Notes under the pieces: model-generated | Databases searched by the model: none | Seen by the model: only the letters and a program-made list of their open reading frames with translations | What the model was told of the DNA's origin: nothing | In this document: piece after piece, positions 22,283 through 62,473 of the stretch | Numbering within the stretch: the stretch's first letter is position 1 | How the letters are laid out: each line of letters starts with the position of its first letter | Program-made: the position numbers and the translations under genes | Source of the DNA: Ignisphaera sp. | GTDB lineage: Archaea > Thermoproteota > Thermoprotei_A > Sulfolobales > Ignisphaeraceae | Direction: 5' to 3' | Assembly: GCA_038831005.1 (NCBI GenBank) | Contig: JAWBKZ010000003.1 | Coordinates: 1-64,000 of the forward strand | DNA: 64,000 nucleotides

Positions 22283-22341
22283 TTCATCAGAAACACAAGC
22301 CTTCATCATTAGGTCAGTTACAGCCGTGATCATCATTCTTC
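22283..22341 (-). ncRNA. C/D box guide RNA, canonical boxes
   Basis: Read on the minus strand: C ATGATGA (22336-22330), 12-nt guide tcacggctgtaa, D' CTGA (22317-22314), 4-nt spacer, C' ATGATGA (22309-22303), 12-nt guide aggcttgtgttt, D CTGA (22290-22287). All four boxes match consensus and both guides have the canonical length. It would direct 2'-O-methylation at the target base paired to the fifth guide base before each D box; targets were not identified. It lies in the 300-bp gap between DUF1152 and the winged-helix gene, which contains nothing else recognised. Confidence 0.94.
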
Positions 22342-22661: not shown

Positions 22662-24029
22662 CTATTTTAAGAGCTTTGATTCCCATGACTTTGCTAATGC
22701 TATACTTTGTGAAATATCTATAAAGAGTTTGGTTGCTTCCTCAATATCTTCAGATCTAACCTCTGATCTCCCTTTTCGTTCAGCTATTATTTTTGCAGGA
22801 TGCATTAACTGTACAGCATATCTTAAGCCTCTGTCACCTGCAATCTTAACTAGATAGTCTATAGCTTCTGATGACAGTTCTATCTCTTCTTCACTAGCTC
22901 TAATCTTTATTATCTCTTTAATCTCATTCTCTGTATAAGGTCTGAAGGGTATTATCAGAAGTCTGTCAAGGACATCTAATGGTATACCATGAGGAGACTC
23001 TATATCTGTTCCACGTATCTTGGTTGTACCTCTGTTTGTCGCCATTATTATTATAGGTGAGAACTCGCTCTCCATAACTCTTGATAAGAAACTAAATGCC
23101 TCTATATCGAGCATATGTACATCATCTATGAACAATACCCCTGGAACCAACGATGCCTTGTTTTCAGATAGAAGTTTTCTCACAGTTTCATTTGAAGCCT
23201 TCCTTATCTCGGGGTCTATCTCTTTCTCTTCTACAAACAGACTTATTATCGATGCAGCCCTTCTTTGAGCTAGATAAGCTTCATCTATATCATGAAGAGT
23301 TATTGTTCTAATAATCTCTTTCTCTTTAAATATCTTACCTTTGGGCATATCTTCATAAACTTCGTAGGTCTCGACATCAAAATAACGAGCTTTTTCAATA
23401 CCTTTCACACGCCCAAGTTTGAAGACTTCACCAGTGTCACTATCAATGCTTATAAGGTCTCCTCTCCTTATACCGAGTTGAGCTAACTGCATAGCTATAC
23501 TTTGATCTACCTCTATAGTCTTTTCTTCATCTTTTGTAGATAATGTTATTCTTGCTGCTCTTGGTATTTTTGCATAGGGATTAAATGGATGTGAAGCTAA
23601 AGAGAACTTCAGTTCTTTAACAACACCCTCATAGACTCTTCTAATCTCTTTATATCTAAGCCCTATAGCTCTTCTAACAGCTCTCATAAGTATTTCAGTC
23701 TTCTTTAGTTCTGTAGAATATAGCTCAGATCCATTGATCATTACGAAAGGTGTGTCTTCGCCAAGTTCTCTAGCTATACCTATTGCTAAAGCTGTTTTAC
23801 CTACACCAGGTGGACCCACAAAAAGTATTCCTCTACCTGCGAGTTTACCTTCCTTAATCATCTTAACAATTATTCCTGCTGCACGTCTAGCTTCTAACTG
23901 ACCCACAAGTCCATCTGCAACAAATATTGGTTCACTTTTTTCATCAAGACCGAGCCCCCTTATGTGACTATGTGCGCTGATCCTCTTTAACATTTCAATC
24001 TTGCTTTCTTCTTTGATTTCTCTAATCAT
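22662..24029 (-). CDS. TIP49 (RuvB-like) AAA+ ATPase
   Basis: 455 residues. Walker A GPPGVGKT at 72-79, an inserted OB-like domain (about 120-250, with RRGDLISIDSDTGEVFKLGRV), Walker B LFIDDVHMLD near 300, sensor 1 in MATNRG, and the C-terminal SSEAIDYLVKIAGDRGLRYAVQLM lid. This is the order in RuvBL1/2 (TIP49) rather than bacterial RuvB. Its relatives act in chromatin, snoRNP and transcription complexes; the archaeal role is not established. GGTGA is 6 nt before ATG 24029. Confidence 0.93.
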   Translation of the reverse strand: MIREIKEESKIEMLKRISAHSHIRGLGLDEKSEPIFVADGLVGQLEARRAAGIIVKMIKEGKLAGRGILFVGPPGVGKTALAIGIARELGEDTPFVMINGSELYSTELKKTEILMRAVRRAIGLRYKEIRRVYEGVVKELKFSLASHPFNPYAKIPRAARITLSTKDEEKTIEVDQSIAMQLAQLGIRRGDLISIDSDTGEVFKLGRVKGIEKARYFDVETYEVYEDMPKGKIFKEKEIIRTITLHDIDEAYLAQRRAASIISLFVEEKEIDPEIRKASNETVRKLLSENKASLVPGVLFIDDVHMLDIEAFSFLSRVMESEFSPIIIMATNRGTTKIRGTDIESPHGIPLDVLDRLLIIPFRPYTENEIKEIIKIRASEEEIELSSEAIDYLVKIAGDRGLRYAVQLMHPAKIIAERKGRSEVRSEDIEEATKLFIDISQSIALAKSWESKLLK

Positions 24030-62407: not shown

Positions 62408-62464
62408 GTCTCCTCATCCCATCAGTGGCTACCACTATCTTCACCATATCTGTAACGGCCAAGT
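62383..62464. repeat. Direct repeat (27 bp) overlapping a gene start and a guide RNA
   Basis: Copies at 62383-62409 and 62438-62464 share 24 of 27 bases and are 55 bp apart, so they are out of frame. One copy encodes the first codons of the unknown gene, the other the D'-C' part of the sRNA candidate. Confidence 0.75.
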
Positions 62465-62473
62465 ACATCATCT
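62420..62473 (-). ncRNA. C/D box guide RNA candidate
   Basis: Minus strand: C ATGATGT (62471-62465), 12-nt guide acttggccgtta, D' CAGA (62452-62449), 4-nt spacer, C' GTGAAGA (62444-62438), 12-nt guide tagtggtagcca, D CTGA (62425-62422). Spacing is exactly canonical although D' and C' are one base off. A TATA-like tract lies about 20 bp upstream. Confidence 0.62.

Follow-up and report, generated by a model that had tools for sequence, protein, structure and literature searches.

A conserved box C/D sRNA of Ignisphaera with two predicted, closely spaced targets in 23S rRNA

The sRNA locus and its conservation

The minus strand of the window (the whole 64,000-nucleotide stretch of Ignisphaera DNA analysed) carries a gene for a TIP49/RuvBL-type AAA ATPase, downstream of it a gene for a winged-helix (wHTH) protein and, 28 nt further downstream on the same strand, the C box of a box C/D sRNA (Table 1). 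Read from 22336 to 22287, the RNA has the order ATGATGA-TCACGGCTGTAA-CTGA-CCTA-ATGATGA-AGGCTTGTGTTT-CTGA, and all four boxes are exact matches to the consensus (RUGAUGA for C and C', CUGA for D' and D) in the expected order. A sequence-only reading of this DNA had proposed a canonical C/D box sRNA here, on the minus strand, with four consensus boxes, 12-nt guides and a 4-nt spacer, all of which was confirmed. Its span of 22283-22341 does contain the sRNA, with a few extra flanking bases at each end (boxes 22287-22336); the mature sRNA is itself probably a few nucleotides longer than the C-to-D body at both ends. The DUF1152 gene that it had named as adjacent lies on the opposite strand and is adjacent only in some relatives, so we regard this proximity as incidental. 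The targets, the same-strand wHTH/TIP49 synteny and a second sRNA directed at the same two rRNA segments, all described below, go beyond that reading.

Table 1. Parts of the sRNA and the genes upstream of it (window coordinates)
Feature	Position	Strand	Evidence or remark
Box C/D sRNA body, C to D box	22287..22336	-	50 nt; 0-mismatch four-box match
C box ATGATGA	22330..22336	-	sequence
D' guide TCACGGCTGTAA	22318..22329	-	12 nt; pairs with 23S 706-717
D' box CTGA	22314..22317	-	sequence
D'-C' spacer CCTA	22310..22313	-	4 nt; variable in orthologues
C' box ATGATGA	22303..22309	-	sequence
D guide AGGCTTGTGTTT	22291..22302	-	12 nt; pairs with 23S 688-699
D box CTGA	22287..22290	-	sequence
Winged-helix (wHTH) protein gene, 90 aa	22365..22637	-	weak Pfam wHTH matches
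TIP49/RuvBL-type AAA ATPase gene	22662..24029	-	Pfam TIP49, E 7e-137

A pattern search of the whole window for the exact four-box layout with this spacing returned a single match with 0 mismatches, and the layout was absent from 100 dinucleotide shuffles of the window even when up to 3 mismatches were permitted, bearing out the earlier expectation that chance agreement is very unlikely. UGA-containing words are common at the 3' ends of genes, which would favour a chance arrangement of box-like words; however, the lack of shuffle matches, the synteny and guide conservation, and the joint complementarity to rRNA leave that explanation with a negligible probability. Across the 1.7 Mb of the genome, a looser C-D'-C' pattern had about nine matches versus none for the reversed control, and thus real C/D sRNAs stand out in the Ignisphaera genome. 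Elsewhere in the window, a weak C/D-like match at 62422-62471 (minus strand), with 3 mismatches and poor boxes and adjoining a TTG-start ORF, is probably due to chance. Fold prediction of the window sRNA revealed neither a convincing terminal stem nor a convincing overall fold (z 1.26); in many archaeal sRNAs the terminal stem is short or absent.

The C/D sRNA was found behind the wHTH gene, on the same strand, in 10 of 10 same-genus relatives, all ten of which also have TIP49 upstream of wHTH. These relatives were retrieved by a wHTH protein search that was independent of the sRNA, and in all of them the guide cores are invariant (CACGGCTGT before D', and GTGTT-N before the CTGA of D), with variable flanks and spacer. 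The orthologue in one of them (G010) was read by eye owing to its long spacer. Three further members of the alignment (n=15), G017, L153 and L154, were found by sRNA sequence or guide pattern, and the statement of invariance refers to the protein-derived set. Of 214 genomes from the order, 32 matched the pattern of the D-guide module, most of them from Ignisphaera's own family, f2 and f4, versus 3 control matches. When public genomes were scanned for the D' module, the matches came mainly from Ignisphaera and other Desulfurococcales MAGs, and three bacterial records that also appeared look like chance matches.

The 28-nt gap and the conserved gene order point to co-transcription of the sRNA with the upstream genes, and the wHTH gene is probably its co-transcribed host gene. 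Relatives of TIP49/RuvBL in eukaryotes assist the assembly of C/D snoRNPs, and the adjacency of a TIP49 gene to a C/D sRNA is probably a coincidence. Most archaeal C/D sRNAs are missing a promoter of their own (PMC7994747).

Comparison with the Rfam sR5 model (RF01304) gave 41.1 bits against a gathering cut-off of 40. The boxes and spacing of the window RNA align with sR5, whereas both guides differ from its consensus, and identity with sR5 was rejected since few guide positions agree (gcgCCaUcGAAa versus UCACGGCUGUAA, acGgaUGccUga versus AGGCUUGUGUUU). As the agreement lies in the boxes, it supports membership of the class alone and not orthology with sR5. A model of the sRNA's own family gave 52.9 bits, as expected for a model built from that same family. 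Archaeal box C/D sRNAs in general (PMC4644070, PMC7994747) have the same C/D'/C'/D consensus, 12-nt guides, short spacer and close N+5 targets in 23S rRNA, and likewise lie close behind a protein gene with no obvious promoter of their own; nothing essential differs in the window RNA. A literature search for Ignisphaera sRNAs found nothing, and no description of this orthologous group and its target pair was found in the literature examined, supplementary site lists apart.

Targets in 23S rRNA

The 16S and 23S rRNAs of the same genome were scanned with the two guides, G-U pairs being allowed; sites are numbered on this genome's 23S rRNA and not on that of E. coli, against which a blastn search of the target segment gave no match. 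The best rRNA match of each guide lies in 23S rRNA. With its target, TCACAGCCGTGG, the D' guide forms nine consecutive Watson-Crick pairs; a G-U pair lies at the end remote from the D' box, and the second base from that box is mismatched. The D guide forms with AAACACGGGCCG, counting from the D box, six Watson-Crick, two G-U and three Watson-Crick pairs. By the N+5 rule for predicting the methylated nucleotide (PMC4644070), the sites are A710 for the D' guide and A692 for the D guide, only 18 nt apart. The sequence-only reading had placed its predicted sites at the fifth base before D' and D, and both of these bases are Watson-Crick paired; its presentation of the guides as target strands (reverse complements) was also right. 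It had been unable to match the guides to any rRNA or tRNA, a result overturned by the scan that it had itself suggested, in which both guides paired with stable RNA of the same genome. The two G-U pairs of the D guide and the mismatch of the D' guide would defeat an exact-match search, which accounts for its having found no target.

A single guide attains its score in 5-7% of shuffles, and hence it is the joint placement alone that is significant. None of 20,000 shuffled guide pairs obtained both scores within 40 nt of each other, nor did any of 20,000 pairs drawn from the other 12-mers that stand before a CTGA in the window. The best scores in 16S rRNA (7.3 and 7.0) were lower than those in 23S rRNA, and the best score among tRNAs (6.6, with 29 of 44 tRNAs scanned) was far under the rRNA scores.

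In the Rfam archaeal LSU model the two sites are positions 659 (A692) and 677 (A710); the former is paired within a CCGU/ACGG hairpin, and the latter is a paired base of the 5' strand of a long-range helix. Since the mature fold has both segments base-paired, the sRNP would have to act before those helices form, and binding of the guides would also hold the segments open for a time, in the manner of a chaperone. The RNA could belong to a genuine C/D sRNP whose main role is that of an rRNA folding chaperone and which methylates one of the two positions inefficiently or not at all, as would fit the pairing of the covered strands in the mature model, the two G-U pairs of the D guide and the mismatch near the D' box; such roles have been proposed for these sRNAs (PMC4644070). 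We consider this unlikely, however, as every orthologue has the same D register and the N+5 base forms a Watson-Crick pair in each of the two duplexes. The mismatch and the G-U pairs could lead to low efficiency at either site. The segment addressed by the D guide, GAAACACGG, is one that we take to be the target region of U18 (SNORD18) in yeast 25S rRNA, A692 then being Am649; homology of the guide RNAs is not claimed.

Changes in guide and rRNA, and a second sRNA

Guide and rRNA sequences were compared across families of the order. The 23S rRNAs of this genome and three others (G000, G004, G007 and G008) read TTCACAGCCGTGG, and in all four the form CACAGCCGTG goes with the guide CACGGCTGT. 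The 23S rRNAs read from other families have TTCACGGC[A/T/C]GTGG or similar, and G140, a member of another family, combines the CACAGCCGTG form with the CACGGCTGT guide. In G020, 23S rRNA has CACGGCAGTG and the D' guide is TGCCGTGA, while the guide of G142, ACTGCCGTGA, fits CACGGCAGT in the 23S rRNA of relatives from its family, its own 23S rRNA not having been found. Each D' guide scores higher with its own type of 23S rRNA than with the other type. On these comparisons, which take in only a few further families of the order, D' guides track the rRNA and complementarity is kept. The D target, AAACACGGGCC, is invariant across all 23S sequences read, and the D-guide core next to it varies mainly from C to U, so that pairing is kept as G-U. 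Most genus members (AAACCCGTGTTA) show poorer pairing at the outer D-guide bases than this genome does.

The genome also has a second dual-guide C/D sRNA outside the window (L040; G000:C4:98314-98365), whose guides, AACGGCTGTGAA and ACCGTGTTTAAT, address the same two 23S segments in a shifted register, with C709 and A689 as predicted sites. Relatives of L040 occur in several genera of the family, some with degenerate D' boxes. The shared guide order and targets suggest that L040 and the window sRNA arose by duplication. Orthologues of the window sRNA in G002, G003 and G010 (L054, L062 and L056) have unusually long D'-C' spacers. Their D' guide is longer by one base, so that C709 becomes its predicted site; a blastn search, which may have missed one, found no clear second sRNA in these three genomes.

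The existence of L040 raises the question of whether the window sRNA might be a decayed or unexpressed copy, its role being carried by L040. The D' complementarity of L040 extends over 11 continuous pairs, L040 is present in other genera of the family, and at two positions where other genus members have C, the D guide of the window sRNA forms G-U pairs. Decay would erode the boxes, however, and those of the window sRNA are all perfect consensus; its orthologues are retained in 10 of 10 genus relatives, it is the second sRNA that has degenerate D' boxes in some relatives, and the two RNAs predict different nucleotides. We therefore judge a decayed copy very improbable.

A precedent for two such RNAs is found in Methanopyrus kandleri, whose sR24 and sR25 are duplicated sRNAs that underwent register shifts after duplication (PMC4644070, Fig. 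4b). As there, the Ignisphaera genome has two sRNAs on one rRNA segment, and indels beside a box move the predicted site by a few nucleotides; unlike in sR24/sR25, the two sRNAs have both their guides directed at the same pair of segments, and several genera retain both RNAs. Possibly, though we offer this only tentatively, the two sRNAs share an ancient relationship and are both kept to serve the same pair of 23S segments in offset registers (A692/A710 versus A689/C709), one acting after the other on a single folding element, while in some species (G002, G003 and G010) a shift of register makes up for the lost partner.

Four further C/D candidates in the genome (L034, L039, L041 and L042) have strong matches at 16S A876, 23S U1864, 23S G2661 and 23S A2636; none of them attains an Rfam cut-off.

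Proposed function and significance

Taken together, the window RNA is, very probably, a canonical archaeal dual-guide box C/D sRNA that would guide 2'-O-methylation of A710 and A692 in 23S rRNA. From the observed boxes, complementarity, synteny and joint change of guide and rRNA, we infer its transcription, assembly into an RNP and role in methylation along the following lines. The sRNA would probably be excised from a longer transcript of the TIP49 and wHTH genes that lie upstream. Its C/D and C'/D' box pairs would fold into a k-turn and a k-loop, respectively, to be bound by L7Ae, after which Nop5 and fibrillarin would join. The two guides would base-pair with neighbouring segments of the nascent 23S rRNA, where the D' guide would direct methylation of A710 and the D guide that of A692.

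In its class and mechanism the window sRNA is textbook, an ordinary archaeal guide RNA. What it adds for hyperthermophilic archaea, in Ignisphaera and its relatives, is a conserved, hitherto unannotated gene for a methylation guide, together with its predicted targets, as well as a clear case of guide and rRNA changing together between families and of two sRNAs of one genome sharing a target pair in shifted registers.
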